Made by a program: the position numbers and the translations under genes. The notes under the pieces were generated by a model, which searched no databases, was not told where the DNA came from, and was given only the letters and a program-made list of their open reading frames with translations. Shown here one piece after another: positions 3,684-51,740 of a DNA stretch of 64,000 nt; positions within the stretch are counted from its first letter, which is position 1, and the number at the start of each line of letters is the position of its first letter. The DNA comes from Nitrospira sp. GTDB taxonomy: Bacteria; Nitrospirota; Nitrospiria; Nitrospirales; Nitrospiraceae. Location: assembly GCA_030123565.1 (NCBI GenBank), contig CP126122.1, positions 2,990,800 through 3,054,799 on the forward strand. The letters run 5' to 3'.

Positions 3684-6600
3684 TCATGGCAAATTCGGGC
3701 AGGTCTTGCGATAGGGCTCGTCGCCGAGGTATTGCCTCCATTCGTCCTCGGTCAGGTTGCGGGTCAGGCGCCTGCAGGCCTCTGCTTGCAGATCGTCGGT
3801 TTTCCAGAGCCAGACCACAGCAGTCCCCTCTACGCTCCCGGTCAACAGGGTACGGCCATTGGGGCTGAACCGAACGTCTCGAACGTACCCCGCATCCGTC
3901 AATTGGCTGAGGATCCTTCCAGTCGACGCATCCCAGATCGAGACGCGGCCTTCGCTGATGGTGGCGAGGATATGGTCTTCGTTGCTGAACCGGAGCGATT
4001 GAATGTCTCGTGCGTGCTTGAGGTGGGTTTTCAATGTTCCCTCCGGCAGCTCCCAGACCTGCACGTCATCTGGTTGCGCGACGATGCACAGCGTGGTTCC
4101 CTGGGGATGAAAGGCAATCCTCTTGATTTCCTGTGCCTGCGGAAGACGGGCGATCCGCTGCGACGTGGCGACCTCCCATACGTCCACGAAGGAGTTGTGG
4201 AGCAACTTCCCCTCTGCCCGTTCGGATACCTCCATTGCCAGGTAGCGACCCCCAGGACTCAGCGCAAACTTGCTTGCTGCTTGGATCGGGAGAGGAGATC
4301 CGACCCGACGCCATTCTGGCAGCGCCCAGACCTGGACGACGCCGTTTCCGTGATCGTCGGTCCTCTGCGTGCCGGCAAGGACGGTACCGGTTGAATCGAA
4401 GACGAGTTTATCAATCCCATCAATGCTGAGGGGCGAGAGTTCGCGAGCCCCGGCCTTCTCCCAGAGTCTCAACGATCGGCGCTCTCGATCCCATGCCGCG
4501 AGATAACGGGGATGCAAGGCTTGGTCGCCGGATCGGCGGAATTTCGGGAGGTCTGTGACGGCGAGGCCCTTGCCCACGTCCATCAAGACGAGGCTCCCCG
4601 TCCCTTCCGCAACAAGGTGCGTTCCGTCTTCGCTGAAGAGCAGGCGATCGACTCGACTGCGCATAGTCGCCGGGGAAGACGCTGGTGTCCCCTCCGCGGT
4701 CCAGAGCTGAACGGATGTACTACTCCCTGTTGCAATGAGATTACCGTCCGGACTGAAGCCGACCGCTCGTACCTCATCGGAATGGACCAGCCGCGCCCTC
4801 TGGTCCCCGCTGCTCATGTTCCAGACCGTGACAGAGCCGTCCATGCCGCCGGACGCGACGCTGGACGCATCCGGAGCGACCGACAGGACCTCCGCGCCGC
4901 CTGGATGGACTGCGCGCAATCTCTCTCGCCCGGAAGGCAATTCCCACAGGCGAGCGGTCCCATCGAACGAGGCCGTACTGATCGTGGTCCCGTCCGGACT
5001 GAACGCCACAGCCTCAACCTTTGCGGCATGCTTCAGTCGAACCACCTCCTGGCGATTCGTCAAACTCCAGACCCTGGCTGTGCCGTCACGCCCAGCGGTG
5101 GCCATGTGGTCGCCGGACGGACTGAATGCAACATCCTGTATCCAAGAGCCTGGTCCTCCAGCAGCCGCCGTCTCATGCGTACAGTGAAAGAGTTCCTTTC
5201 CGGTCTCGACATCCCATATGAAGGCCTCATCGCCGTTCGCAGTCGCGAGTTGCTTCCCGTCCCGACTGAACGCCAGGCCCAACCCTGCTTCGCCCCGCGA
5301 CCAAGTCCGATATATTCGGCGCGCCGCCATGTTCCAGAGGCTGATACGCCCATCCGTGCTGATCCCAGCCAAGTAGGTTCCGGAGGGGCTGAACAAGACC
5401 TCCCGCATTTCTACCTCATGTTTGAACTTCGCCACTTCGCGGCGTTGATCCAAGGAGACAATTCGCGCGGTGCCGTCTTTGCTGCCTGTGGCGACGTAGG
5501 TGCCGGCTGGGTGGAAGGCCACCGTTACCACGCCATCTTCGTGGATGAACCGGAACAACTCACGGCCGCTGGACATGTCCCACAGGCGCGCGGTCTTGTC
5601 GTAACTGCCCGAGGCCAAGAGGGTTCCGTCCGGACTGAATGCCAGCGCCGTCATCTCTGCATCCACGCCTGGCGCCTTGAATGTAACGCCGCTTGCCGAT
5701 GGATCTCCGCCGGCCTCGATGGATGCCTCAGGCTTGAAGCTCGCGATGACCTTGCCTTGACGCAGGTCCATCACTTCGGCAATGCCATCCTCGCGACCGA
5801 CCGCTGCAAGGTCACCGTTTCCGCTTAAGACCAGAGCGCGGGTGCGCGCCCGGTTCACATCCGGTCCCGCGTACGGATAGGACCCGGCCGAAGGCAGGAG
5901 GGAAAGCCCCGCGCGCAGGGCCTGATTCCCTTCGAACGAGGACACACGCCTGGTCGATTCAAGTGCCAGTAAGACGGAGAGCGGCAACTCATCCGGCAGT
6001 TGCGTCACAACGGATATGGACTGTGCAGCCAACTGACGAGCGACTGCAACGTTGCGCTGCCGCTCTGCTTCGTCTCTCTGCTGTCCTGCCACCCACGCCT
6101 GCCGGAGAGCCGTCACGGCAGATCCGACTATCAGGGCGAACGCGATCCCGACGAAGATTTTCGTTTTGCGGTATTCACGAACGTCCTCACCGTCCAACTC
6201 GTCCTTGGGCTTGCCCTGCAACGGTGCGGCAATGTCCAGGATCGCCGCCCGAAACTGCGAATGCCGCAGTGAGAGCTTCTCTTCGGACTTGGCCCAGCGC
6301 AGATCGACATAGAGCGGTTCGTTCTTGAATCGGCCCTGGAGATTCAGCGGGAGCGCGGTGGTGATGGTCCAATTGAAATCAGTCGTTGCGCGATCCCAAG
6401 ACAGGTCCCCGTCCGTCAGCACGATAAAGAACCTGTCGGCAGTGCGGTGCTGCAACCACCAGGCAACCTCCTGTTGCACCCATTGCGACTGCGCCGCTTG
6501 AGGCGAGGCGAGGAGGAGAAAATATTCGGACTCGCCGAGGGCTTTCTCGATCGAGGGCCACAGTTCGGGCGTCATGGCGAGGCTGGTCTTGTCGCGAAAG

Positions 6601-6737
6601 GTCCGCATCGCGCGGAGCCGGTACCAGGGCTTGGCAAAATGGTGGAGGGCGGACTGCAGCGCCGGCGCCAGCTTGCCGTCCGCCGCGTGGCTGTAGGAAA
6701 TGAAGGCCTTGTACGCGAACTGTTCTGAACCCTTCAT
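3684..6737 (-). CDS. TIR domain - membrane segment - WD40 repeat protein
   Basis: About 1017 residues. Residues 8-165 form a TIR_2 domain: YKAFISYSHAADG at the start, then ALGESEYFLLLASPQAAQS and WVQQEVAWWL. Around residues 200-225 there is one hydrophobic segment (IFVGIAFALIVGSAVTAL) followed by a charged helix (ERQRNVAVARQLAAQS). From about 280 to 990 there are many WD40-type blades with repeated FSPDGT, TARLWD and VWNM motifs, probably two propellers. TIR domains can cleave NAD or act as signalling adaptors; WD40 propellers are recognition scaffolds. The layout suggests a membrane-tethered sensor with a cytoplasmic TIR effector. ATG 6737 is preferred to the TTG 18 bases upstream. No other defence or signalling gene is adjacent, so function remains open. 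Confidence 0.85.
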   Translation of the reverse strand: MKGSEQFAYKAFISYSHAADGKLAPALQSALHHFAKPWYRLRAMRTFRDKTSLAMTPELWPSIEKALGESEYFLLLASPQAAQSQWVQQEVAWWLQHRTADRFFIVLTDGDLSWDRATTDFNWTITTALPLNLQGRFKNEPLYVDLRWAKSEEKLSLRHSQFRAAILDIAAPLQGKPKDELDGEDVREYRKTKIFVGIAFALIVGSAVTALRQAWVAGQQRDEAERQRNVAVARQLAAQSISVVTQLPDELPLSVLLALESTRRVSSFEGNQALRAGLSLLPSAGSYPYAGPDVNRARTRALVLSGNGDLAAVGREDGIAEVMDLRQGKVIASFKPEASIEAGGDPSASGVTFKAPGVDAEMTALAFSPDGTLLASGSYDKTARLWDMSSGRELFRFIHEDGVVTVAFHPAGTYVATGSKDGTARIVSLDQRREVAKFKHEVEMREVLFSPSGTYLAGISTDGRISLWNMAARRIYRTWSRGEAGLGLAFSRDGKQLATANGDEAFIWDVETGKELFHCTHETAAAGGPGSWIQDVAFSPSGDHMATAGRDGTARVWSLTNRQEVVRLKHAAKVEAVAFSPDGTTISTASFDGTARLWELPSGRERLRAVHPGGAEVLSVAPDASSVASGGMDGSVTVWNMSSGDQRARLVHSDEVRAVGFSPDGNLIATGSSTSVQLWTAEGTPASSPATMRSRVDRLLFSEDGTHLVAEGTGSLVLMDVGKGLAVTDLPKFRRSGDQALHPRYLAAWDRERRSLRLWEKAGARELSPLSIDGIDKLVFDSTGTVLAGTQRTDDHGNGVVQVWALPEWRRVGSPLPIQAASKFALSPGGRYLAMEVSERAEGKLLHNSFVDVWEVATSQRIARLPQAQEIKRIAFHPQGTTLCIVAQPDDVQVWELPEGTLKTHLKHARDIQSLRFSNEDHILATISEGRVSIWDASTGRILSQLTDAGYVRDVRFSPNGRTLLTGSVEGTAVVWLWKTDDLQAEACRRLTRNLTEDEWRQYLGDEPYRKTCPNLP

Positions 6738-7357
6738 GACCGATTCGGGCCCCAAGAAATAATGAAAGATGGCACGTTGCAGGACTCCAATGGAACCGCC
6801 CAGAAATCATCGATAATTTTATCGCGAGAACCATGCACAGTAGATCATGGGACGCCAGCCTTTCTCTACCGCAAGTACCAAGCCAGCCGACAATCTCGCG
6901 TTTTGTAGCGGTTTCCAACGATGAAGGATTTCGCATGGGAAGGCTGCAGTATCTACTGCGATACTGTGGGTATCTGAAGAGATACTCTCTTGCCGGCGCG
7001 TGCCGATCTCGGCACATAGATATTTCAATCCTGCGCAACCGAGAAAGAAAACAGCTGCAGACACCTTCTGATCGCGCCGTGATGTGAGGTGATTTCGAGA
7101 AGGGTAAGTGGATGCACGTTGCGTCGATTCGGAGGGGCAGTCTGATACCGCTTGGGTTATGGTGAGTCGGCTGGGATTCGAATGCGAATCTTCAACGGCA
7201 CAAGCCACCACGATGGACGATCGGGACGCACGATAAGTACCAATGCGGATTCGACAGAGCGAAACGCCTGTGAGTTTCTCGCTGCCGACAGAATGAGGTG
7301 GATCATCACCTTCTAGGCAGCCGTTGAAGAATGAACTGCGGCAAAGCGCTTCCCGCG
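6738..7357. other. 620-base non-coding region holding a tRNA-Lys-derived repeat
   Basis: No ORF here has a recognisable product or codon pattern. The stretch separates the start of the TIR-WD40 gene from the end of the first glycan gene, so it should contain the TIR-WD40 promoter, though I cannot pin it down. Its notable content is the tRNA-Lys 3' end copy at 7160-7182. It is somewhat AT-rich compared with the flanking TIR-WD40 gene. Confidence 0.6.
7160..7182. repeat. Putative att-site copy: 23-bp repeat of the tRNA-Lys 3' end
   Basis: These 23 bases (first half TGGTGAGTCGGC) are identical, in the same orientation, to 63316-63338 inside the intact tRNA-Lys gene. Read on the minus strand they comprise the T-loop start, the 3' T-stem strand, the 3' acceptor strand, the discriminator and CCA. 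That is the segment normally duplicated when a tyrosine integrase inserts DNA at a tRNA 3' end. No tRNA can be folded here because the 5' portion is absent. Bases 7175-7190 also form an inverted repeat, GATTCG-AATG-CGAATC. Confidence 0.65.
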
Positions 7358-16121: not shown

Positions 16122-17897
16122 TTAAAGGACGGCATCTCCGGGATGATCGGCGGTCACTTCACGTACTCGACCCAAGGCAAGACCGTAGGGAGCTTCGTAC
16201 CAAGGTTCGACCGCAGCGAGGCGGCCTGCTCTATCCTCTCGCATGAAGACCTGAACAGGGGGATTCACGCTGGCATACGACAGAAAGGGCCGATCCAGCC
16301 ACGGTATGAGCCGGGGAGTATGAAACTTTTCCACTAATCGATATCCCAATGTGCCATCCACCAATTGATCGAACAATTTTTTCGAGAACGGACTGATCGC
16401 CGAGTTCAAGCCGTTGCGCCATTCGAGCCGCTGACGCCCTTCATTCATATCCTGGGGAATCACCAAAATGAATTCCGGGCGGCTCTCTTTGATCGTCGCA
16501 ACCGCCTCCTTTTCATGCACGATGTTCAGATTTCGCACGTCGGCCCGCAAATGCGGCAATTTCGAGGCATAGCCGAAATGCATGACTCGATCTCCGGGGC
16601 TTAGATGTTGATCGAGCCATTCGCCCGCCGCATAGCGTGAATCCCTCAGCATATCGTGGGTAAGATCCACCGTTTGAAGCAACAACAACCCCGCCATGAG
16701 GCCGCAGGCCAAGGCAACCGGCAGACGCAACGCTGGAGAACTCAACGCTTGATCGACGGCGTACGCGGCAAAGTACGTCAGGGGCAGAGCCACCGGCAAC
16801 AGATAGTGGACGCGGCTCATTCCGACAGGAATCAGCATGAACAGAAAGCCGACGGAGGAGAGCAACATGACCAGGGATAATCGATCGCGCACAGTCGCAA
16901 GGAGAATCCCTGCGCAAGCAGTGAAAAACAAGGGTACGCTCACGACATCGAGTAGATAGCCGAACAGGTCCTGAAGTTGATGCACCGTTCCTGTCCAAGT
17001 CAACGGGTGACGAAGGTACAGTGCACGGGTCGTGCTTGCGGACGAAAGCTTCTCAAGATGCTGGGCAAAGCGGGCAGGATCGACGAGCACCCCGCTCATC
17101 ATGAAGTAGACAATGCACAATGAGACCAGAGCCGCCGCTATAGACGCCCACTTACTGCGCCAACCGAAGAACCGGTCTGCCTGTCCTGATTTCCATTGGA
17201 TCCAGACTAAGGCCGGAGACAATAAAATGAACGAGCCTGCCGATTGATCCTTCGTCGCCCCCGCCAACGCGACGAAGCTCCCGAGCCATAGACCCCGCTG
17301 CACCGTGAGTCCCCCGCGCAGACTCACCGCAACAACGGCCAAGCCAAGGCTCGTCCACCCCAGCACAGGCATATCAGGATTGGTCAGCTTCGCATAGTAG
17401 GACATGGGGAACAGCAGCATTGTAAAGACTGCGGCCAAACATCCTGCGCGCCGTCCCCATAAACCGCGAGCGCCGACGTACACGCCGACGACGGCCGCCA
17501 CACCCAGTATTATGGACAAAGACCGGCACAGGAGACCGAGAACTTCGAAGGCTCCGACCGGATCGACGAGACCGAAGGGAAAGGTGGGAGTCGGATGGGC
17601 GAATTGATCGGTGACCAACAACCACGCCATATAGGGCGCCATGGCACAGGCCATTAAAAAGTAGTGCCCCCAGGGATAGGCGACATTGCGATTGGGGGCC
17701 GGCGCGACGAATGTGTCGTGCATCTCCGCCAATGCCGCGAGCGGGGCCGCATCATCATTGCCCCAGGCATGGGTTCGTTCATAATTGGTCGCATGGGGGA
17801 GGCCCCACGTAATCCCCGGTAAATAGACGCAGACGGTCATCACGGCGAGACACACCGCGCACCGGTCTTTCACCAATCCCTTCAGGACACCACTCAT
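16122..17897 (-). CDS. GT-C type membrane glycosyltransferase (GT39-like)
   Basis: 591 residues with about 11 helices. The first external loop (about residues 28-75) contains HAWGNDDAAPLAALAEM, with adjacent acidic residues as expected for the catalytic site of dolichyl/undecaprenyl-phosphate-sugar dependent transferases. A soluble C-terminal domain begins near residue 420 (GEWLDQHLSPGDRVMHF). It overlaps the upstream deacetylase-carbamoyltransferase fusion gene by four bases, so the two are translationally coupled. Sugar and acceptor are unknown. Confidence 0.8.
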   Translation of the reverse strand: MSGVLKGLVKDRCAVCLAVMTVCVYLPGITWGLPHATNYERTHAWGNDDAAPLAALAEMHDTFVAPAPNRNVAYPWGHYFLMACAMAPYMAWLLVTDQFAHPTPTFPFGLVDPVGAFEVLGLLCRSLSIILGVAAVVGVYVGARGLWGRRAGCLAAVFTMLLFPMSYYAKLTNPDMPVLGWTSLGLAVVAVSLRGGLTVQRGLWLGSFVALAGATKDQSAGSFILLSPALVWIQWKSGQADRFFGWRSKWASIAAALVSLCIVYFMMSGVLVDPARFAQHLEKLSSASTTRALYLRHPLTWTGTVHQLQDLFGYLLDVVSVPLFFTACAGILLATVRDRLSLVMLLSSVGFLFMLIPVGMSRVHYLLPVALPLTYFAAYAVDQALSSPALRLPVALACGLMAGLLLLQTVDLTHDMLRDSRYAAGEWLDQHLSPGDRVMHFGYASKLPHLRADVRNLNIVHEKEAVATIKESRPEFILVIPQDMNEGRQRLEWRNGLNSAISPFSKKLFDQLVDGTLGYRLVEKFHTPRLIPWLDRPFLSYASVNPPVQVFMREDRAGRLAAVEPWYEAPYGLALGRVREVTADHPGDAVL

Positions 17898-20569
17898 AGG
17901 TGGCCTTGGCCGACAAAAAATGGCCCGAGGACCAAATGATGCAGGTGGCTCTGTTGAAACGCGAAAATCGCCTCTTCCGGGGATCGCACAATCGGCTCCT
18001 CATGCATGTTGAAGCTCGTGTTGATCAACACCGAAATCCCCGTCAGATGTTTATAGGCGGACAAGATATCGTGCATGCCGGGATTGATCTCCCGCCTTAC
18101 CAGTTGAGGACGCGCCGTACCATCGATATGGACGGCTGCCGGGCACAACCGCCGCATGGTGTCCGTACAACCGACCACGAGAGTCATGAATTCACAAGGG
18201 CGCTCCCTGCCTTTTCGTATTTCAAAATATTCTTCGTAGTCTTCATACAATGCCATTGGAGCAAACGGCATGAATTCCGTTCGATGGAGTTGCTGATTGA
18301 GCCAATCATTCACCGACTTGTCTCCGCAGTGGTAGAGAATGGATCGATTCCCGAGCGCTCTCGGCCCGAATTCCATACGACCGTCGCAACGAGCGACGAT
18401 TTTCCTTTCTGCGAGCGCTCGGGCGACCACGTCCGCAATACAGTCCGGCTTCGTGACGTGCAACTGCGGATACCGTTTGAGCGCCGCCAGACAGTCCTTT
18501 TCCGTGAACTCGGTTCCAAGATACATATCGCGGACAGGCTTCGGCTCTGCAGCCGGAAGGCTCAACGCCGCCCCGACACAGAGACCGCCGTCTCCCATGT
18601 TGGGAAACACATAAAACGAGTCGATATCCAATTGTTCTGCCAACGCCATATTTAACTTCACATTCGCCATAACCCCGCCGGCCGCCACGAGAGGAAGGCG
18701 CTCTCCCGCCAGATACTTCTGCGTCAGGCGCACGAGCTCACGTTCCATCAAGAACTGAAAGGCATAGGCGACATCCTCCCGCTTGTATCCTCGCAACAAT
18801 CGCTTGAGCGGCATCTTATAGTTGCGATACTCGACCGTCAGAAGATTCACCTTGCCGGCGAGCACTTCCTTGAATTTCGGACGGATAAAACCCTCCGCAT
18901 AGTAGCGCTTGTTGAGCGTAAACTGCCCGTTCTCGGCCGAGAAGGTGCGCTCCACCTTTTCAATCAACTCCGGCACCGGCTTTCCATATCCCGCCAATCC
19001 CGTGATTTTTCCTTCGTGACGCCCACCTTTGAATCCAAGAATTTGCGTGCAGGCGGTATAAAACTGACCGAACGAATTCGGGTAGAAGTACTGGGCCACT
19101 CTCCTGATCGTCGAACCTGCTCCGCGGGAGATCGTGATGGACAATTCATCCCCCACTCCATCGGCGACGAGAATCAAGGCCTTCTGTGCGGTACTCGTCC
19201 GAAACGCGGCGGAGGCATGTGACTCGTGGTGCTCAACGTACTGAATCTTCGGACGTATGCCGTACTCTGTTTCGAGGAACCGTCCGAGGGTGTCATATTT
19301 CATGGCGCGCCAGAGGCAAAACGCCCGATAGGCCACGCGGCAGAAATGAGGAACGTAATCATTCCAGGAATGGAAGTCCGTCACGTCGCGTTTCAAGCTA
19401 TCGACAATGCGCGGGAGGAGGTCCCTCGGTTCGAGGCCGGACACGGCCACGGCATCGATCTCTTTCGGATTGATACCCGCCACCTGAATCGCCTCCCGAA
19501 TGGAGCGAGTGGGCGGGAAGGCATCGTCGAGCTTGATGCGCGACATTCTTTCCTCGTTGATCGCGGACAGGATCTGTCCATTCTTCACCACACAGGCACC
19601 GGTTTCGTGCGTCGTGCTGATCCCCAGTATCGTGCGAGGGCTCAAGTCAGGGGCCGACCTCGGCCAATCCCGCACAAGATCTTCGCTGGTCGTCAGGGCG
19701 AAGTCCCGCTTGACCCGATCGAACAACACATCCAGAAAGCGAAGCTTCGATCGGCTGGAAAAGTAATTATTCGTGTACAGCTTCAGGCGGACGCTCGGTA
19801 AACCCGGCTGTCGGTCGGAAAAATCCGTGAGGTGGAATAACATCGTCAAATAGTTGTACCGCCGGCTGAAGCGCCGGACTTGCGCATGAAAATAGAACCG
19901 AGACAGGTAAAACGCGTAGCAAGGGTGAAAGGGAGGCAGCCATGGACCGGGGTGCGGCATCGGGAACTCGAACAACCGGCTCTCCGGGAACAACAGGAAC
20001 GGCTCAGGGAAGAGCCGCTGCAATCCGAGCCGTTCCCGAAATTCATTCGTCGGAAAGATAGAACTGTCATAGCGATACCCGGCATCACGAAGGATCTCCA
20101 ATGATTCGAAATCGATCGAGTATCCGGGGGCTCTGAATCCCTGGCATTCGATGCCCAGAACATCCTCGATGGTTTTCTTTCCGGAAGCGATTTCCTCACG
20201 TTTGTCCATGGATGAGAGCTGATTCAAGTATCGATGAGTCAGAGAGTGACACGCGATCTTGTGACCGGCCCGCACGACGGTTTCCACGGCTCGACGTTTT
20301 TCTCCCCCCTCCAGATCGCTCCCGATCACAAAGTACGTGGCGGTCACTCCGTGGCGTTCGAACCACGCCAGGGAGTTCTCGACCGCAGAGGTGTAGAGTG
20401 CATCCTGCGCCCCATCATACCGATACCCATGCCCTTGATGGATGGCGCTAAGACCATCCATGTCAACATGCACAAAAGCCTTTTTCTGGATGACTTGAGA
20501 CGGGGGTTCCGCGTGCGAGCTCACTTGGGCTTCTAGAGGACTAGCCGCCATGGTCGTTGTTACAGGCAT
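17894..20569 (-). CDS. Polysaccharide deacetylase - carbamoyltransferase fusion protein
   Basis: 891 residues in two parts. Residues 30-305 form a NodB-like deacetylase of the DUF3473/exosortase-associated type: the metal aspartates in VDMDG (36 and 38), histidines in CHSLTH (108 and 112), and FRAPGYS at 145-151. Residues 312-891 form a complete NodU/CmcH-type O-carbamoyltransferase: ILGISTTHETGACVV, an NEERMSRIK stretch, HHESHASAAFRTS with iron/nucleotide-binding histidines, VADGVGDE, and GRMEFGPRALGNRS in the C-terminal domain. Both halves seem intact, so one polypeptide could remove an acetyl group and carbamoylate a hydroxyl group. It lies between an asparagine synthase and a GT-C gene. 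Cytoplasmic, since no signal peptide is visible. Confidence 0.85.
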   Translation of the reverse strand: MPVTTTMAASPLEAQVSSHAEPPSQVIQKKAFVHVDMDGLSAIHQGHGYRYDGAQDALYTSAVENSLAWFERHGVTATYFVIGSDLEGGEKRRAVETVVRAGHKIACHSLTHRYLNQLSSMDKREEIASGKKTIEDVLGIECQGFRAPGYSIDFESLEILRDAGYRYDSSIFPTNEFRERLGLQRLFPEPFLLFPESRLFEFPMPHPGPWLPPFHPCYAFYLSRFYFHAQVRRFSRRYNYLTMLFHLTDFSDRQPGLPSVRLKLYTNNYFSSRSKLRFLDVLFDRVKRDFALTTSEDLVRDWPRSAPDLSPRTILGISTTHETGACVVKNGQILSAINEERMSRIKLDDAFPPTRSIREAIQVAGINPKEIDAVAVSGLEPRDLLPRIVDSLKRDVTDFHSWNDYVPHFCRVAYRAFCLWRAMKYDTLGRFLETEYGIRPKIQYVEHHESHASAAFRTSTAQKALILVADGVGDELSITISRGAGSTIRRVAQYFYPNSFGQFYTACTQILGFKGGRHEGKITGLAGYGKPVPELIEKVERTFSAENGQFTLNKRYYAEGFIRPKFKEVLAGKVNLLTVEYRNYKMPLKRLLRGYKREDVAYAFQFLMERELVRLTQKYLAGERLPLVAAGGVMANVKLNMALAEQLDIDSFYVFPNMGDGGLCVGAALSLPAAEPKPVRDMYLGTEFTEKDCLAALKRYPQLHVTKPDCIADVVARALAERKIVARCDGRMEFGPRALGNRSILYHCGDKSVNDWLNQQLHRTEFMPFAPMALYEDYEEYFEIRKGRERPCEFMTLVVGCTDTMRRLCPAAVHIDGTARPQLVRREINPGMHDILSAYKHLTGISVLINTSFNMHEEPIVRSPEEAIFAFQQSHLHHLVLGPFFVGQGHL

Positions 20570-20588: not shown

Positions 20589-22526
20589 CTAGTTTCCCGT
20601 GCCCACAGCAGATGCCGGATGCGCTCCGGGCAGTTGTTCGCCATCGACAAAGGCTCGAAACCAGAGTTCCAAACATAACAATCCCCAGACCTGCCGGCCG
20701 AAGCTTCGTTCGTGAAGCAGCAACCGCTCCACTTCCTTTACCTGATAGATCCCCCGTTGCCGCGCACGAGGCCCCAGAAGGATGTCGCTCAGGAACTCCC
20801 GCAGCGGACCCCGGCTCCACTCATTCAGGGGCACCGGAAATCCCATCTTGTCCTTCCGGTTAAAGACCGTCTCCGGCAATAAGACCCGAACGGCATCCCG
20901 AAATACCCGTTTGGTATCCCCACCTTTGAAACGAGCCGTCGGTGGCATTCGCGTCACGAGATCGGCGATCCGATGATCGAGCAGCGGGACTCGGGACTCC
21001 AACGACACGCTCATGCTGGTTCGATCCTCGACTTGAAGGAGGGCTGGGAGCAGCGTTTTCAGATCGAAGTTGGTCATCTTATTGAAATAGCTTTTCGTAG
21101 ACGGGTTATTGAAGACTTCTTGAAAGGCCGCGACCATCCGAGCCTGACTCCGGCCGTTCCACACATCTCGACTGATGAGCGTATCCGCATCGTCAAGACG
21201 GCTCACGAGGCGGAAATAGCGTTGATCCATGTCGTCGAACAAGCCGTCTTTCCACAAGTGTTGGAGCATCGGCTTGTACTGCCGTAACAGCGACAGATTG
21301 GGCATGATACTCTCCCACGTCACGACATACCGCCCCTCGTCTTGCGTCCCGAAGATGACTCCCTTCAAACACTGCTCCAAATACGCGACGAGGTATCGTG
21401 CGTAGCCGCCGAAAATTTCATCCCCCCCCTGCCCGCCCAGCACCACCTTCACGTGCTCTCTCGCCAGTTTCGACACACAGTATTGGGGGAAGAGCCCGGG
21501 ACCTGCCGCCGGTTCGTCCATCATGTACATCAGGCGAGGCATGACCTCCACGAAGTCCTGCCAATTCGGCCAGACTTCGTGATGTCGACTGTTGACGTGC
21601 TCGGAAACTGAGCGGGCATAGGCCGTTTCGTCGTACTGGGGGCCGTCTCTAAACGCTCCCGTAAAGGTGTGAAATTGGCCTCCATAGACGGGAGCGGCGA
21701 GACACACGACCGTCGAACTATCGATACCGCCCGAGCAATGAGCGCCGACCGGCACATCACTACGCAGTTGAAGGCGCACGGAATCCTGCAACACGAGCAA
21801 CAGCTGCTCCGTGTAGTAATCCTCAGTGTGGTGGCTGTCGATCTCATAGTTGAAATCCCAATATCGCACGAGGGACGGCTCTTGATCGCGGAACGGCCGA
21901 AAGGTGAGATAGTGCGCAGGTTCCAGCTTGCGGATATGGCGAAACAGGGTCCGCTCTCCCAGACACAACTGAAACGTCAGGTACTCTTCCAGCCCCTGGA
22001 CGTCCGGATCAGGGGCTGCGAGACCGGCTCCAATGAGCGCCTTCGGCTCGCTCGCGAATGCAAAGCGCTTTCCATCGCACATCCAATAAAACGGTTTGAT
22101 TCCCATTCGGTCACGGGCCGCGAACAATCGCTGTTGACGACGATCCCAAATCGCAAAGGCGAACATGCCGTTCAACCGCTCAAGACAACGTTCCCCCAAT
22201 TCCTCGTAAAGATGGAGAATGACTTCCGTATCGCTATGCGTACGAAAGGTATGGTTCCGCATCAACTCTCGACGGAGTTCCAGGTAGTTATAAATCTCCC
22301 CGTTAAACACGATCCAAATCGATTCGTCTTCATTGGTCATGGGTTGATGACCGGCCTCAAGATCGATGATCGACAGGCGCTTGTGACCTAACGCCACGGG
22401 CCCTTCTCCCCACAATCCCTCCCCATCCGGCCCCCGATGCGACAACAACGTCATCATGGCGCGCACGATCGACTGATCGACCGCGTGAGACCGATCACGA
22501 TGGATCACTCCAGCAATTCCACACAT
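20589..22526 (-). CDS. asnB: Asparagine synthase family glutamine-dependent amidotransferase
   Basis: 645 residues. The N-terminal glutaminase starts with the nucleophile Cys2 (MCGIAGVIHRDRS), followed by LLSHRGPDGEG, RLSIIDLEAGHQPM and FNGEIYNY. The synthetase domain has the PP-loop HCSGGIDSSTVV and GGQGGDEIFGGYARY. These AsnB-like proteins are common in glycan clusters, where they are thought to amidate uronic acids rather than make asparagine; this one sits upstream of a carbamoyltransferase fusion, 20 bases away. The substrate assignment is inference. Start codon is fixed by Cys2. Confidence 0.9.
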   Translation of the reverse strand: MCGIAGVIHRDRSHAVDQSIVRAMMTLLSHRGPDGEGLWGEGPVALGHKRLSIIDLEAGHQPMTNEDESIWIVFNGEIYNYLELRRELMRNHTFRTHSDTEVILHLYEELGERCLERLNGMFAFAIWDRRQQRLFAARDRMGIKPFYWMCDGKRFAFASEPKALIGAGLAAPDPDVQGLEEYLTFQLCLGERTLFRHIRKLEPAHYLTFRPFRDQEPSLVRYWDFNYEIDSHHTEDYYTEQLLLVLQDSVRLQLRSDVPVGAHCSGGIDSSTVVCLAAPVYGGQFHTFTGAFRDGPQYDETAYARSVSEHVNSRHHEVWPNWQDFVEVMPRLMYMMDEPAAGPGLFPQYCVSKLAREHVKVVLGGQGGDEIFGGYARYLVAYLEQCLKGVIFGTQDEGRYVVTWESIMPNLSLLRQYKPMLQHLWKDGLFDDMDQRYFRLVSRLDDADTLISRDVWNGRSQARMVAAFQEVFNNPSTKSYFNKMTNFDLKTLLPALLQVEDRTSMSVSLESRVPLLDHRIADLVTRMPPTARFKGGDTKRVFRDAVRVLLPETVFNRKDKMGFPVPLNEWSRGPLREFLSDILLGPRARQRGIYQVKEVERLLLHERSFGRQVWGLLCLELWFRAFVDGEQLPGAHPASAVGTGN

Positions 22527-23494: not shown

Positions 23495-24340
23495 CTAATC
23501 CGAGAGGGCCCGCCCGACCGATGCGGATTCGCCTTTGGAACCAGCCACTCGTTGCTTGCGTTCATCGATCAGTTGCGCCCAGCGCATCCCTTCCTTCCCG
23601 CCCCAGTTGCGACAATGCTTGATAATCAAAATGAGGCATCCCAGTGTCGTGATGCTGGTCACCACCTTGCTCGTGCTCAACTTCTGCTCATAACGCAAGA
23701 CAAACGGCACCTCCCCGATACGCGCTCCCATCATGCGGAACTTGATGAGTTTTTCGAGAGTACCCGTAAACCCAAGCCCCTTCAAATCGATGAATTTATT
23801 CCCAAAGATGTGGAGGGCGTCTTGAACTACCCCGACGCGATAGGCCCGGTACCCGCAGGTATACTCTTTGAGGCCGGGAACGGGGAACACGAGTTTGAAG
23901 AGGAGATTTGCGCAACGACTGATCGTTCGGCGATACCAATCCAGCCCGGTCTGTCCTCCGCCCGGTGCATAGCGAGAGGTGGTCACGACATCATAGCCCT
24001 CGTCGAGTTTTCTCACCATATCCGCGATGTGCTTCGGCTCATGAGTATCGTCGCAGTCCATTCGAACCAGAATATCATCCGGCACCGCCATATCGACCAC
24101 GTACTCGAATCCGTCTCGGATGGTCTCTCCCAGCCCTCGATTATACCGATGCGCAATGACATGTAAAGGATACTGGGTTCTCAGCTCCTCCAGAATCTCT
24201 CCTGTCCGATCTTCGCTGCCATCATCCACGACGACCACGCGGTAGGTCCAACCATGCTCTTTCATCGTCTTGTCGATCTTTGCGAGTAAGGGACGAAGGG
24301 CTGCTTCTTCGTTATAGGCCGGGAGGACGATGTGAATCAT
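23495..24340 (-). CDS. Family 2 glycosyltransferase (polyprenyl-phosphate sugar synthase-like)
   Basis: 281 residues. The N-terminal GT-A domain has IVLPAYNEEAALRPL, VVVDDGSEDRTGEIL, NRGLGETIRDG, and RMDCDDTHEPKHI as the metal-binding motif. This order matches dolichol-phosphate-mannose-synthase-like enzymes. One weak hydrophobic stretch near residue 235 (VVTSITTLGCLILII) may touch the membrane. Likely makes a polyprenyl-phosphate sugar donor for a GT-C enzyme. AAGGAG lies seven bases before ATG 24340, which overlaps the stop of the upstream toroid gene by four bases. Confidence 0.85.
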   Translation of the reverse strand: MIHIVLPAYNEEAALRPLLAKIDKTMKEHGWTYRVVVVDDGSEDRTGEILEELRTQYPLHVIAHRYNRGLGETIRDGFEYVVDMAVPDDILVRMDCDDTHEPKHIADMVRKLDEGYDVVTTSRYAPGGGQTGLDWYRRTISRCANLLFKLVFPVPGLKEYTCGYRAYRVGVVQDALHIFGNKFIDLKGLGFTGTLEKLIKFRMMGARIGEVPFVLRYEQKLSTSKVVTSITTLGCLILIIKHCRNWGGKEGMRWAQLIDERKQRVAGSKGESASVGRALSD

Positions 24341-26094
24341 GACACACTCCTTGCCCGAAACGGCATCGCCATTTCACCCTCGGAGACGACCAGCTCCGGC
24401 ATGGAGCCCGCCGGAAAACGAATCGTACACATGACTGTCCCTTGTCCGTCTTTCTTGAGCCCGTCGAGCAATCCCGAAGAGTCGAACGTCACCTTGCTGC
24501 GGATCTCGGCAGGATGGAAATACTTTGCCGATCCCATATGAATACCCGTAAAGGACCTCGTCAGATCCAGAGATTGAAGCGGGAGCCCACCCGTGCTCTC
24601 CACACAATCGTGTATTTGCACTGCATCCGGGAAAAAGAGCAAGCGACGACGCAGTCGCAACGGCACGATCCGCTTCTTCAGAATCAATCGCGCGAGAATT
24701 CTCCGCCGTATCCATCCACCGAGGTGGATGCTTCGGAAGGCGGTCAGGTTCAAGATTCTCAGAAGGATGAATTTGACCGGAGTCAGCATCTCCTGACAGG
24801 CTTCTGCGAAATCAGTTTGGCAGCAGACGACATCCGTTTGTCCGGAATCGACTTCTCCCCCCAACCCAATGATCTGCGACGTCAGCAGTTTGTCCTTGCT
24901 CCGCGCGCAATATCCGGCATCTTCATAGGTGACGGCCGCAGGCTCCTTCGAGAAGATCCGGCATACTCCTCCCTTTGCGGTGTTGACCACCGCATAATAG
25001 GACGGCGAGCCGGAAACGACGATCCCGCAGTGCTGAAAACGATGCACACCGTTGAGCGATTCGCAGGGAAGCGGAGGAACGTTTCCAGCCGGAGTTGGTG
25101 GCCCAAGACATCCTTCAAGATAGGCATAGAGGAGAGAGGCTAAATTTTCCATATCCGATGCGTCTGGAGTCAGTACGTTGCCTTGTGTGAGTCGTTGGCG
25201 CATGAACCGCGCGACAGAATCCGCCAAGGGAACCGACGGCGCGAGCATTTCGAATCCGGCCGGGAAATACAGCGCCGTGTGCCGACTTCCATAGACGCCT
25301 CCGACACTCCCGTCCGGGTGTACGGAATAGGCGTAGAACGCTATGCTGCGCCGCAACGATTCAAGCAACCGCTCCGAACCCGTTCGCCGCCAGCAGAGCG
25401 CCAGATAAAAGATCCCGAGGGATTCATACCCTGGATCCGGACCATCGTACTCACGATACCAGCCTTCTGGCGACTGAGCAGCAAGAATGCGGCCCATCAC
25501 GTCGTCTGCGCGGCTTCGCCATCGATCTTCGTTGAGAAGGTCGGCAGCTCCAAGGAACGCCGCTGCGAACAACGCCTGGTGATTGGTGATGACCGCATAG
25601 TCCTCGCGACTGTGAAGAGCGAATTCGCAACCTTGCCGTACGGCACGAACTACCCGCTCCCTGAGATGCGAACCGATACCCGAATCGATCAGCCTCAATG
25701 TCTCCACCAGTCCGAAGACCATGGCGAGTGTGACGCCATGATCCTGAGTAAACGGTCCGACAGAATCGAAGGCACCGTTCGGCCGTTGACGAGCGCACGT
25801 ATACTCAATCGCCCCCGCGATCCAACTCAAGACCTGCGCATTTTGATGGTACGGATTGTTCGGAAAAGGCACGCGCCATAAAAGAGCCAACGGATAGAAA
25901 TTGATTTGCAACATCGTGAGTGGGAAGTCATGAAATTTCCATGCCCAATGAGTTCGGTCAAAGCAGCCGAAACTCACCGAATGCGGTTCCCGGTCCAGAC
26001 AACTCAGAAGGCGAGGGATCTGTTTGATCACCGACGGCACATAGAGGGCCGCACGTACCGGATCGACAGCGAGGCATTCGCGTCTTACGTTCAT
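24337..26094 (-). CDS. Alpha/alpha-toroid protein, heparinase-like, of unknown function
   Basis: 585 residues, no signal peptide. Residues 60-330 look like an alpha/alpha toroid: helical repeats with PNGAFDSVGPFTQDHGVTLAM, NHQALFAAAFLGA and SPEGWYREYDGPDPGYES, similar in character to heparinase II/III and polysaccharide lyase toroids. The C-terminal half (from about 340) is more beta-like, as in the lyase sandwich domain. Absence of a secretion signal argues against a periplasmic lyase; it might handle a cytoplasmic lipid-linked glycan. Starts and stops overlap both neighbours by four bases (ATGA), tying it to the formyltransferase and GT2 genes. Confidence 0.55.
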   Translation of the reverse strand: MNVRRECLAVDPVRAALYVPSVIKQIPRLLSCLDREPHSVSFGCFDRTHWAWKFHDFPLTMLQINFYPLALLWRVPFPNNPYHQNAQVLSWIAGAIEYTCARQRPNGAFDSVGPFTQDHGVTLAMVFGLVETLRLIDSGIGSHLRERVVRAVRQGCEFALHSREDYAVITNHQALFAAAFLGAADLLNEDRWRSRADDVMGRILAAQSPEGWYREYDGPDPGYESLGIFYLALCWRRTGSERLLESLRRSIAFYAYSVHPDGSVGGVYGSRHTALYFPAGFEMLAPSVPLADSVARFMRQRLTQGNVLTPDASDMENLASLLYAYLEGCLGPPTPAGNVPPLPCESLNGVHRFQHCGIVVSGSPSYYAVVNTAKGGVCRIFSKEPAAVTYEDAGYCARSKDKLLTSQIIGLGGEVDSGQTDVVCCQTDFAEACQEMLTPVKFILLRILNLTAFRSIHLGGWIRRRILARLILKKRIVPLRLRRRLLFFPDAVQIHDCVESTGGLPLQSLDLTRSFTGIHMGSAKYFHPAEIRSKVTFDSSGLLDGLKKDGQGTVMCTIRFPAGSMPELVVSEGEMAMPFRARSVS

Positions 26095-26933
26095 AGACAG
26101 GACGACCCTCTCGGCGGCAACGGATCATACGTCGCCGCCGCTTCATCTTGTTTAATCCGCGGGATATCGCCGGACCGTACCAAACGAACCGCCTCCAGAA
26201 GCAGCCGTGCGGCCACATGACTCGAACGATCGCGCAACGTGTGCTCCGTCATTCCGGATTCAAGTGGAATCTGTTCTTGCAGAATGATATCCCCCGAATC
26301 GATTCCTTCTTCGATATGATGAACCGTGACTCCGCTGTAGGGTTCTTGATTCCGCAGCACCCAATAAAAAGGATTCGGTCCACGGTGTTTGGGCAACAAT
26401 GAGGGATGCACGTTGATGCACGCGAGGGAAGCGGCCGTGATGACCGGCAACTTTAGAATCTGACTGAAGGCAGCGACTGCGATGATCTCAGGACAGAGTG
26501 AACGTAACCGACCAACGGCTTCCGCAGAATTGATGTTGCGAAATTCAAACCGTTGAAGACGACGGGCAAGGACAAGTTCCTGCATCGAGCGATACCCCGA
26601 CAGCGCAACGTGCGCCTTGCGCAACCGGATTCGCACCCACGAAAACAACAAATCGAACCCTCGCCTGGCGACGAATCCACCTCCATATTGCGACCACGAT
26701 TTTCGCAACACAGGCAGAAAGCCGCGATTGGTCGGGCGATAAATTCCCACGATGACTTCAATCCGGCGGTCTGTCGCCAATGCGTCCAAACAGGTGATGC
26801 TGATCGGGTTATAATCGTTCCCTAAAAAAAGAACTCGCGTTTTTCCCGCTCCCTCGCCGGCCACGATCAGCTCATCTGCCTTGTTATCCAGCCACCCATC
26901 GATTGTGACAGGGACACCGGCAAACGTTTCCAC
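26091..26933 (-). CDS. Formyltransferase family protein (sugar N-formyltransferase-like)
   Basis: 280 residues. The folate-dependent formyltransferase core is evident: VLFLGNDYNPISITC at the start of the Rossmann fold, then NVHPSLLPKHRGPNPFYW with the catalytic Asn/His, and EEGIDSGDII with the catalytic Asp. Homologues N-formylate amino-sugars with N10-formyltetrahydrofolate. No tRNA-binding C-terminal domain is present, so Met-tRNA is an unlikely substrate. The ATG at 26933 overlaps the upstream FemAB fusion by 67 bases; a GTG at 26864, just after that gene's stop, is an equally good start and would remove about 23 residues that contribute nothing to the fold. Confidence 0.8.
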   Translation of the reverse strand: METFAGVPVTIDGWLDNKADELIVAGEGAGKTRVLFLGNDYNPISITCLDALATDRRIEVIVGIYRPTNRGFLPVLRKSWSQYGGGFVARRGFDLLFSWVRIRLRKAHVALSGYRSMQELVLARRLQRFEFRNINSAEAVGRLRSLCPEIIAVAAFSQILKLPVITAASLACINVHPSLLPKHRGPNPFYWVLRNQEPYSGVTVHHIEEGIDSGDIILQEQIPLESGMTEHTLRDRSSHVAARLLLEAVRLVRSGDIPRIKQDEAAATYDPLPPRGSSCL

Positions 26934-29398
26934 ACCGACCGCATGAATGCGAACGCAGGTCCGCTGCTGTCAAAATCAGGGAGTGCGCCGCCCCGATACG
27001 CGCGGTACACGGAATACATGGGGTGCTGGATGCCGCCCCATTTTCGTTTGAATCGCAGCAGCCCCGTCTGACGAGGAGAATCCGCGCCGAAATCGTAGTA
27101 CCGGAATCCCTGTTTCGCCGCCCATTCGATCGTGTGCCAGAATATGACTTCACTCGGATAGCACTTTCGCCATACGTTTTGCGGAGCTGCGTAGGCCGGA
27201 GTGAACGACTCACATGAAAACAGACATATCATCGCATTGATGGGGATGCCATCCTTCCTGACCAAGGCCAGACAGGCCTTCCCTGCTCGAATGAGATGAG
27301 CATGGATCGCGGAAAACAAGGTGCGTGGGAAGGGAGGGATACCCATTGAAGAGCGGGTCCGTACAAACAGTCGACAGAATGTGTCCATACCTTCGACGGT
27401 GTTATCGAACTCAAAGGTGACTCCCTCTTTGGCGGCCTTCTTGATCGCCCAGCGGACGAAATCACGGTCCAGCGCCCTCCAGAGAGCCTCGACGCCAGGC
27501 GTGAGATCGACCCGCGTCGTGACCCAATGGCGGCGGGTGACGAATCCGCTCTCATGCATCACCTTGAGGTCGGGTTCATGGAACGATCGCAATTCGACAT
27601 AACGACAGCCCAGTTCACGCGACAGTTCCGACAGGTACTCGTTCATCCTGGCGGTTACGCGCGGATCGACCGAAAGGATTCCCCCGCGATCTCGCATCGG
27701 CACCGAAACGAGCCGACGGCCGAAGATGCCCTTGACAAGGAAAAGCGGCAAGACCCCGACGATTGCGCCCTTGTCGTCTCGCACACAAATATAGTACGGC
27801 TGATGCCCCAATCCCTGCTGGGTCACCTGCCGCCAGGCAATGGTGTGATAGATCGTGCCGTCCGGATGGCGGGCCACAAATTTGTCCCATTCCTCGTGTT
27901 CCTGTGCCTCCAGGAGTCCGACCGACCATGCCGTCTGCGCACCGACCTGGATCGGGAGATCGTGGATCGCATGGTCGGTGGAATAGGCATCGAGTTCGCG
28001 CTCGTATTCCCCCCATTCCCTGGCCACTTGATTGGGAAGCGGCTTCTTCCATGACGAATCGATGTGTTGTTGAGCCCAAGCTTTCAGCCAACGTCCCCAC
28101 CTCGGGTATAGGTCCTCGTTCATCGCTCGAGCATGATAATTCAGCACGACCACTCCGCCCGTGGACGCAGCGACATCGAGGAGACTTTTGGCATACCCGT
28201 CCGCATCTCGAATCCCGTTCGTTCTCAGTCGCTGATCGAAATGGTTGTCCATCCAGGCAGGCGGTAACTGCAAGACTTGCAACTCGCGCCGCAATTCCGG
28301 ATCGAACGGACGGAATGGGTGGCAGATTCCTCTGCGATATCCGGGATAATACTCAAAAGCCAGCGATGTATCATAGAGAAACGTGCCCTCGTGCATTCGT
28401 AACGTTTCATGCGGAGCTGCCGGATCGAGATGCCAAAAGTGGTGCCGATTGCCTACAACCTGAACGCCCGCAGCCCGTTCGAGATCTTCCTTTTCTTTCT
28501 TGATCCCCCCCTTATCCTGGTAGGCCCGAAATGAGGTGTGTAACCCGATCTCATAGCCGGCATCTCGCAAAACGGCAAAGAGATCTTGGAATACCGGAGT
28601 GCGCACATCATAGAACGCATCGGGATTGCCTTGGGCGTATTGCAGCAGCGAGCCGCGCCGCACCATGAAGTAAAAAGCGGATTTGGATCCCATGGATCGT
28701 TCAAAATCGATCCAATCGGGAAATCCCCAGAAATGGCTGGAGCCATTCCAAATGTCTCTGATGGAGTTCCATGCGCGCACCCCTCGTTGCCGCAGGACGC
28801 GCACGCATTCGATCCAACGGATGATTTGTGGATAGTCCACGTCATGAGACAACACGAAGCTCGAGGCCAGCGCGAATGGTCGCCGTTCGAACCCTTGCTC
28901 TTCCCACAGTCGTCGGAGAAAGGCGCCGTAGATGGATACGACCGGTTTGTTCAGAAGCCCCTTCTGAATCAGAGCCGTGCGGCTCAGGTCCACATTGCCC
29001 CATCGATCCCACGGACAAGCGGTCTCCTGAGCACCATTGAGAAACCAATAGGAGGCGAAGACAATATCCTGCGGAAATTCCAGTCTTGCGCCGGTCCGAC
29101 GAAAGGGCCCCGCTTTGGCGTCGCCGAAATCAAGGAAGGGCACACCTTCCGACTCGTAGACCGCTTCAGGCTCGACATACCGCATAGAAGCAAAGGGCCG
29201 CCTGTAGGCCGGAATGCGGACTTCCGCACGCACCTCTTTTTGACACCCATAATAGAGGTCCACCTGAGAAGTTGCCCTCGTCCACTCGAATGCATAAGGA
29301 AATCCCGCCACACGCATCAGCGTGCGCAAGGTATACTTGATCTCCGCTCCCCATTCCTCGAGAGCGGGATCGATGCCGATGGAAATTGGGCGCAACAT
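26867..29398 (-). CDS. Polysaccharide deacetylase-like - FemAB/GNAT fusion protein
   Basis: 843 residues. Residues 1-170 are an unassigned N-terminal domain. Residues 178-425 are a deacetylase-like barrel with FVLSHDVDYP (186-188 matching the metal-binding acidic motif), GYEIGLHTSFRAY (His287) and GNRHHFWHLD. From about 490 to 843 there is a FemAB-like GNAT pair: HEEWDKFVARHPDGTIYHT, GHQPYYICVRDDKGAIVG, and YYDFGADSPRQTGLLRFKRKWG. FemAB-type proteins are associated with exosortase-linked polysaccharide loci, where they may transfer an aminoacyl or acyl group. Both functions fused is unusual. Next gene downstream is the formyltransferase; 152 bases separate it from the acetyltransferase gene upstream. 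Confidence 0.8.
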   Translation of the reverse strand: MLRPISIGIDPALEEWGAEIKYTLRTLMRVAGFPYAFEWTRATSQVDLYYGCQKEVRAEVRIPAYRRPFASMRYVEPEAVYESEGVPFLDFGDAKAGPFRRTGARLEFPQDIVFASYWFLNGAQETACPWDRWGNVDLSRTALIQKGLLNKPVVSIYGAFLRRLWEEQGFERRPFALASSFVLSHDVDYPQIIRWIECVRVLRQRGVRAWNSIRDIWNGSSHFWGFPDWIDFERSMGSKSAFYFMVRRGSLLQYAQGNPDAFYDVRTPVFQDLFAVLRDAGYEIGLHTSFRAYQDKGGIKKEKEDLERAAGVQVVGNRHHFWHLDPAAPHETLRMHEGTFLYDTSLAFEYYPGYRRGICHPFRPFDPELRRELQVLQLPPAWMDNHFDQRLRTNGIRDADGYAKSLLDVAASTGGVVVLNYHARAMNEDLYPRWGRWLKAWAQQHIDSSWKKPLPNQVAREWGEYERELDAYSTDHAIHDLPIQVGAQTAWSVGLLEAQEHEEWDKFVARHPDGTIYHTIAWRQVTQQGLGHQPYYICVRDDKGAIVGVLPLFLVKGIFGRRLVSVPMRDRGGILSVDPRVTARMNEYLSELSRELGCRYVELRSFHEPDLKVMHESGFVTRRHWVTTRVDLTPGVEALWRALDRDFVRWAIKKAAKEGVTFEFDNTVEGMDTFCRLFVRTRSSMGIPPFPRTLFSAIHAHLIRAGKACLALVRKDGIPINAMICLFSCESFTPAYAAPQNVWRKCYPSEVIFWHTIEWAAKQGFRYYDFGADSPRQTGLLRFKRKWGGIQHPMYSVYRAYRGGALPDFDSSGPAFAFMRSVWKRLPVSLSQSMGGWITRQMS

Positions 29399-50900: not shown

Positions 50901-51740
50901 TTAATGAGCCCGTAACCGTCGTAGAAATCGTCGCAGTCCGACATAGTGGCGAAACACGGATGTTCCGCACCACCTGAACAGGTCATTTCGGGAAAAGTAA
51001 TACATATCAATGCGGGGGAGCCGATAGGGATGGCTTTCACGAGAGGCAAACCCCATTTCCACTGAGCATGCGGCTTCATAGGCTTGACAAACAATTTGCT
51101 CCGCCGCCGGCGTATGGATCCCATAGGGGTAGGCAAACAAACGCGGCTTGCTCCCCACTTGTTCAGAGATGACATGCTGAGGCTCGATGATTTCTCTTGC
51201 GAGTTCTTCACGCGAAAGACGGGCAAGATTGGGATGTGTGATGGTATGCACGCCGAAGTCGATGCCTTCTCGGGATGCTTCCCGAACTTCCTGCCAATCG
51301 AGCAACTCCAATCGGGGGACGTCAGGAGATTGTCCCGGCCATTGATTGTCTTTTCCGGAACGGCCGGTCACCAAAAAGACGGTGGCTGGAAACTGAAATC
51401 TCTTCAGGATGGGGAGCGCACAAGAAAAGAAGTTGCGGAACCCATCGTCAAACGTTAAGGCCACGGCATTCCGAGGAAGAGTCGAGCGGTGTTTCAGGAT
51501 AGACACTGCCTCAAGCAACGAAAGGACCCGAATCTTGTTTTCAGCCAAGCACTCCATGTGCCGACGAAACTGTTTCACATCGGTCGAAATCACCGATCCG
51601 CTCGAATCGATGGAATGGTAGGTCAGAATCGGGATTGCAGCAGTCAGCTCTGCGGGCACGACAGCCTCCTCACTCTGAATGCGACCACTGGAATCCTCCA
51701 AGGCTACCCATTCTCTTCGACCGGTCACGGATCCGGTCAC
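50901..51740 (-). CDS. NodB-type polysaccharide deacetylase
   Basis: 279 residues. PILTYHSIDSSG opens the domain; VALTFDDGFRNFF provides the metal-binding aspartates, and FGVHTITHPNLARLS the histidines (HxxxH). YPYGIHTPAAEQI is the further conserved motif. No signal peptide is evident at the start (GTG 51740), so it may act inside the cell on lipid-linked sugar, or a different start is used. The stop-start overlap with the GT4 gene is GTGA (51737-51740). Third deacetylase domain in the window. Confidence 0.85.
   Translation of the reverse strand: MTGSVTGRREWVALEDSSGRIQSEEAVVPAELTAAIPILTYHSIDSSGSVISTDVKQFRRHMECLAENKIRVLSLLEAVSILKHRSTLPRNAVALTFDDGFRNFFSCALPILKRFQFPATVFLVTGRSGKDNQWPGQSPDVPRLELLDWQEVREASREGIDFGVHTITHPNLARLSREELAREIIEPQHVISEQVGSKPRLFAYPYGIHTPAAEQIVCQAYEAACSVEMGFASRESHPYRLPRIDMYYFSRNDLFRWCGTSVFRHYVGLRRFLRRLRAH

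Follow-up and report, generated by a model that had tools for sequence, protein, structure and literature searches.

In the Nod factor pathway of rhizobia, NodB deacetylates the non-reducing GlcNAc of the Nod factor (PMC5380657), and NodU is assigned the 6-O-carbamoylation of Nod factors by a reference cited in PMC7290934. Of the carbamoyltransferases with a related fold, GdmN binds iron through H133, H137, D156 and D333 and uses H27 as general base (PMC9633730). A NodU-like carbamoyltransferase also occurs in another hydrolase fusion, StdF, where it acts on an amine (PMC13174530). Here we describe a Nitrospira gene in which a NodB-type deacetylase and a class III carbamoyltransferase are joined in one protein. 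We propose, with a probability of roughly 0.6, that its product is a cytoplasmic bifunctional enzyme that tailors a glycan made by the surrounding polysaccharide cluster.

One gene for two enzymes

The gene lies on the minus strand of the window (the whole 64-kb stretch of DNA analyzed), which is part of a complete Nitrospira chromosome assembled as one 4.6-Mb contig, where the gene occupies positions 3008696-3011368. Its features, in window coordinates, are the following:

17894-20569, minus strand: fusion gene, NodB-type deacetylase plus class III carbamoyltransferase, 891 aa (ORF, Pfam, four-genome comparison)
19670-20479, minus strand: polysaccharide deacetylase (CE4-like) domain, about residues 31-300 (Pfam; best curated relative TIGR03006, below its cut-off)
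20456-20464, minus strand: first motif of the deacetylase, D36-x-D38, with putative roles as catalytic base and in metal binding (invariant in four fusions)
20234-20248, minus strand: deacetylase metal motif H108-S-L-T-H112 (invariant in the fusions and in the A2 and A4 alignments)
19634-19669, minus strand: inter-domain linker, about residues 301-312 (Pfam boundaries and four-fusion comparison; low pLDDT)
18545-19633, minus strand: Kae1-like carbamoyl-transfer domain, about residues 313-675 (alignment to GdmN; fold match to GdmN, TobZ and NovN)
17912-18424, minus strand: YrdC-like carbamoyl-adenylate domain, residues 716-886, with the motif GRMEFGPRALG (Pfam, alignment, fold match)

The first-pass annotation had read this stretch as one fused open reading frame, and this was confirmed: a single frame of 891 aa opens with ATG and contains no internal stop. 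The NodB-type (CE4) polysaccharide deacetylase comes first, at about residues 31-300, and the NodU/TobZ-type carbamoyltransferase follows at residues 313-886. Based on Pfam searches, both halves score above their cut-offs. Polysacc_deac_1 (PF01522) matched residues 56-167 with 64.4 bits against a cut-off of 23.1, and Carbam_trans_N (residues 314-669, 137 bits) and Carbam_trans_C (residues 716-886, 188 bits) were both well above their curated cut-offs, in the N-then-C order that defines class III (NodU/TobZ) enzymes.

Full-length copies were present in four of 29 Nitrospira genomes: this genome (G000), G021, G027 and G014, the last three including the named MAGs Nitrospira RBC073 and SJ521. The copies are 96% (G021), 96% (G027) and 86% (G014) identical to that of G000, and all are 891 aa long without gaps or stops; none has a stop or frameshift around residue 308, which would have contradicted the original reading. 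Calculated by the Nei-Gojobori method, the dN/dS ratios were 0.09-0.11 over the full ORF; the deacetylase half gave 0.07-0.14, the carbamoyltransferase half 0.09-0.12 and the junction (residues 285-313) 0.07-0.17. Poor conservation was confined to the first 30 residues. Since the gene is intact and equal in length in four of 29 genomes, and dN/dS stays at about 0.1 from one half through the linker to the other, an assembly or frameshift artefact was ruled out. The ratio across the junction and the gapless ORFs of the four genomes also indicate that the linker is translated and under selection.

Active sites of the two halves

The motifs reported for the deacetylase half, VDMDG and CHSLTH, were found at residues 35-39 and 107-112, and those of the carbamoyltransferase half, HHESHASAAF and GRMEFGPRALG, at residues 447-456 and 730-740. 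The metal ligands of both halves are retained, and every catalytic residue that could be checked by alignment is present.

Concerning the deacetylase, D36, D38, H108, H112, R146, P148, D168 and H246 are invariant in all four fusions, so that the protein carries the residue set of the NodB-homology (CE4) family: an Asp motif, HxxxH, R-x-P and a C-terminal catalytic His. Six of these residues (D36, H108, H112, R146, D168 and H246) are also unchanged in alignments with unfused XrtA-type deacetylases, D36 being invariant in both the A2 and the A4 alignment of unfused relatives. Motif 1 reads D-x-D instead of the classical D-D of CE4, and the roles given here to the motif residues are putative ones taken from that family. 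The best curated model for this half was TIGR03006, the deacetylase of the XrtA system, which scored 84.9 bits, below its cut-off of 276.2; the NodB model gave 38 of 240 bits. The HPWE and GGGYFR segments of the TIGR03006 family are replaced in the fusion, with HLTD standing in the place of HPWE. Together with the low TIGR03006 score, this suggests that the acceptor pocket probably differs from that of the XrtA deacetylases. The same departure in the C-terminal segment would fit a catalytically dead domain that serves the carbamoyltransferase as a carbohydrate-binding or scaffolding module, as would its somewhat faster evolution, in the comparison with the most distant copy (G014), than that of the carbamoyltransferase half (dN/dS 0.14 against 0.09). 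However, a role in binding would not need the core CE4 residues, which are invariant in the four genomes, and we regard a dead deacetylase as very improbable.

The carbamoyltransferase half could be compared residue by residue with GdmN. In a phmmer alignment the iron ligands H133, H137, D156 and D333 of GdmN correspond to H447, H451, D470 and D660 of the fusion and its general base H27 to H321, so that the two His and two Asp ligands and the catalytic His of class III carbamoyltransferases are all in place. The NodU equivalog NF041651 gave 121.8 bits, below its cut-off of 1000 bits. An AlphaFold2 model of the fusion, built from 34 sequences, reached a pLDDT of 80-98 over most blocks of this half, two loops excepted. 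Foldseek searches with the modelled half returned GdmN, TobZ, VtdB and NovN with E values from 1e-43 to 2e-38; the value of 1e-43 for GdmN and a TM-score of 0.8 (by target length) to TobZ place it in the class III fold.

The deacetylase half was modelled poorly, with pLDDT blocks of about 24-54 over residues 100-310, because few usable relatives were available; two scans of viral contigs for additional relatives yielded one each. A structure prediction of the linker had been suggested in the first-pass annotation, and AlphaFold2 gave it a low pLDDT and no confident structure. At such values the model does not show how the two active sites are positioned towards each other.

The polysaccharide cluster

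The fusion gene is embedded in a cluster of polysaccharide genes whose order around it is conserved in all four fusion genomes. The neighbours that bear on its function are:

20589-22526, minus strand: upstream neighbour, asparagine-synthase-like amidotransferase (AsnB) of XrtA/PEP-CTERM type (514 bits, below the cut-off of 816.9)
16122-17897, minus strand: downstream neighbour, membrane protein with a weak GT-C (PMT-like) match, whose gene overlaps the fusion stop by 4 bp
23495-24340, minus strand: GT2 polyprenyl-phosphate sugar synthase-like protein, related to dolichol-P-mannose synthase (DPM1) and ArnC (profile match)
26091-26933, minus strand: formyltransferase domain of Fmt/ArnA type (profile match)
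26867-29398, minus strand: second fusion, VimE-like deacetylase N-terminus plus XrtA-type FemAB acyltransferase C-terminus (profile match)

The AsnB-type gene is separated from the fusion gene by 19 bp. The cluster also contains a methyltransferase, a UDP-GlcNAc 2-epimerase, flippases and numerous glycosyltransferases. The second fusion, which combines a DUF7033 region with the XrtA-type FemAB/GNAT transferase, is kept in the three other genomes with the deacetylase-carbamoyltransferase gene. All fusion genomes also encode a 585-aa protein (24337-26094, minus strand) that matched no Pfam or NCBIfam model, has a relative at L073:7220-8917 and by eye resembles an alpha/alpha-toroid of heparinase or C5-epimerase kind. 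Elsewhere in the window, 50901-51740 (minus strand) encodes a PgaB/IcaB-type deacetylase, the third distinct deacetylase gene of the 64 kb, and 3684-6755 (minus strand) a 1023-aa protein with many WD40 repeats.

The presence of the Fmt/ArnA-type formyltransferase, the DPM1/ArnC-like GT2 and GT-C-like proteins raises an alternative in which the deacetylase half is a deformylase. ArnD shares its fold family with the NodB-type deacetylases, and an ArnD-like step could remove the formyl group from a formamido sugar on undecaprenyl phosphate, the product of the formyltransferase and the GT2, before carbamoylation. The ArnD model, however, gave the fusion a negligible score of 13.6 bits (E 0.028), compared with 84.9 bits from the XrtA deacetylase model, which makes this route improbable.

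No signal peptide or membrane segment was evident in the fusion protein, whose hydropathy over 19 residues peaks at 1.34, and at 0.41 within the N-terminus. As its carbamoyltransferase also needs carbamoyl phosphate and ATP, we infer that the enzyme is cytoplasmic.

Distribution of the fusion and of unfused pairs

No further copy of the fusion was detected in 175 genomes of the family, in 295 genomes sampled across the phylum, in 72,556 plasmids or in 50,697 phages. A search for exact peptides in 84,980 species genomes matched two Nitrospira MAGs only; as such a search detects close relatives only, other phyla are still possible carriers. Unusually long carbamoyltransferase frames in other members of the phylum (G086, G137, G238, G297, G266 and G114) were read and had no deacetylase, and a Haloterrigena match beginning at query residue 255 proved to be a separate carbamoyltransferase. 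Literature searches on deacetylase-carbamoyltransferase fusions returned no report. In the material searched the fusion is rare, and it is selectively maintained.

Other extended carbamoyltransferases were encountered. Two Nitrospira genomes, G010 and G019, encode a 1101-aa fusion of an SGNH/GDSL hydrolase with a carbamoyltransferase (L029:9013-12318, minus strand, and L030:7589-10894, plus strand), another hydrolase-type domain joined to this family, in which about 140 C-terminal residues have no assignment. At L045:8079-10661 (plus strand) a carbamoyltransferase frame carries an N-terminal extension of 287 residues for which Pfam returned no match at E values up to 2; the extension may be mere open frame preceding the real start codon.

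The two functions are also found side by side as separate genes. Eight other Nitrospira genomes have a deacetylase gene immediately upstream of a carbamoyltransferase gene; the intergenic gap is 2-37 bp in the seven pairs where it could be measured. The distant phylum member G193 has a deacetylase (PF01522, 24.7 bits, cut-off 23.1) encoded 26 bp upstream of a carbamoyltransferase, and G281 and G175 combine relatives of the two halves with AsnB within one cluster. At L066:7085-9741 (minus strand), in a distant phylum member, an unfused deacetylase and carbamoyltransferase are adjacent, and their cluster also includes AsnB, FemAB and a further deacetylase.

In a tree of 36 carbamoyltransferase sequences, the fused clade grouped with those of G193, G305, G175, G281, G148 and G139, and the carbamoyltransferases of the Nitrospira pairs fell on the opposite side of a branch with 100/98 support. 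A derivation of the fusion from the adjacent Nitrospira pair was therefore rejected, the deacetylases being also only 22-23% identical. Since fused and paired carbamoyltransferases belong to separate clades, and thus to different subfamilies, the association with a deacetylase has arisen at least twice.

This recurrence supports, without proving, a common substrate, because both kinds of gene are generally abundant in polysaccharide clusters and adjacency by itself is weak evidence. The cases inside each clade are, in addition, not independent. The abundance of both kinds of gene, and the fact that the unfused pairs represent different subfamilies, would also suit a fortuitous fusion, in which two enzymes of the operon were joined for co-expression and act on different molecules of the pathway. 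Yet the genes lie directly side by side in repeated cases and the linker is maintained by selection, both of which argue for functional coupling, and a fortuitous union seems quite unlikely.

Proposed function

The polysaccharide operon and the independent unfused neighbours in other genomes suggest that both activities of the fusion serve the same glycan. In the bifunctional tailoring enzyme that we favour, the NodB-type domain would act on an amino sugar in a precursor linked to a nucleotide or to undecaprenyl, stripping it of an acetyl group or a comparable acyl group. The YrdC-like part would form carbamoyl-AMP from carbamoyl phosphate and ATP, and the iron-binding Kae1-like part would pass the carbamoyl on; its acceptor would most likely be a hydroxyl, either on that amino sugar or on a residue next to it. 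The modified precursor would then be flipped and polymerised. The substrate, the order of the reactions and O- rather than N-transfer are our inferences; the group removed would be N-acetyl, with N-formyl or O-acetyl also possible. The first-pass annotation had gone further, to deacetylation and carbamoylation in sequence or on one intermediate, as a route to carbamoylated amino sugars. The fusion, its two preserved active sites and a context suggesting one glycan stand, and the reaction sequence, the N-acetyl substrate and O-transfer are retained as a proposal.

The freed amine could itself be carbamoylated, in an acyl exchange that would convert an N-acetyl into an N-carbamoyl group (a ureido sugar). 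The deacetylase-FemAB fusion of the same operon, a pair suited to de-N-acylation followed by re-N-acylation, lends this some credit, but the structurally solved class III enzymes that we found are all described as O-carbamoyltransferases or act on antibiotic hydroxyls, with H321 kept likewise in the fusion, and the literature searched contained no ureido-sugar polymer. We consider the exchange rather unlikely; that a single chain makes such a polymer, with the deacetylase-FemAB fusion alongside it swapping acetyl for aminoacyl, is unlikely.

If both halves of the tailoring enzyme act on one precursor, the fusion would be direct evidence of coupled de-N-acylation and carbamoylation in bacterial surface polysaccharides, a coupling otherwise only hinted at by neighbouring genes in other genomes. 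Some Nitrospira would then be predicted to have a carbamoylated amino sugar in their surface glycan, and the gene would offer a one-gene handle for making carbamoylated amino sugars in vitro.

Comparison with known systems

The fusion is a new domain architecture built from known enzymes and not a new kind of system. With the XrtA/PEP-CTERM system it shares TIGR03006 as best model for the N-terminal half and the proximity of AsnB-type and FemAB-type genes. However, it scores far below the equivalog cut-off, lacks HPWE and GGGYFR, and no exosortase was matched among the window proteins scanned with NCBIfam. TobZ, GdmN and NovN have the same Kae1-like and YrdC-like domains with conserved iron ligands and general base, whereas their substrates are antibiotics and they have no deacetylase; the C-terminal dimerisation domain of GdmN and NovN (PMC9633730) is absent from the fusion. 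StdF differs in that its hydrolase is a peptidase, its substrate a peptide and its reaction the N-carbamoylation of lysine. The closest parallel is the NodB/NodU pair, in which the two matching enzyme folds act on one oligosaccharide in the Nod factor pathway. In rhizobia these are separate proteins, whereas in Nitrospira they form one chain, belong to other subfamilies and are encoded in a polysaccharide cluster.
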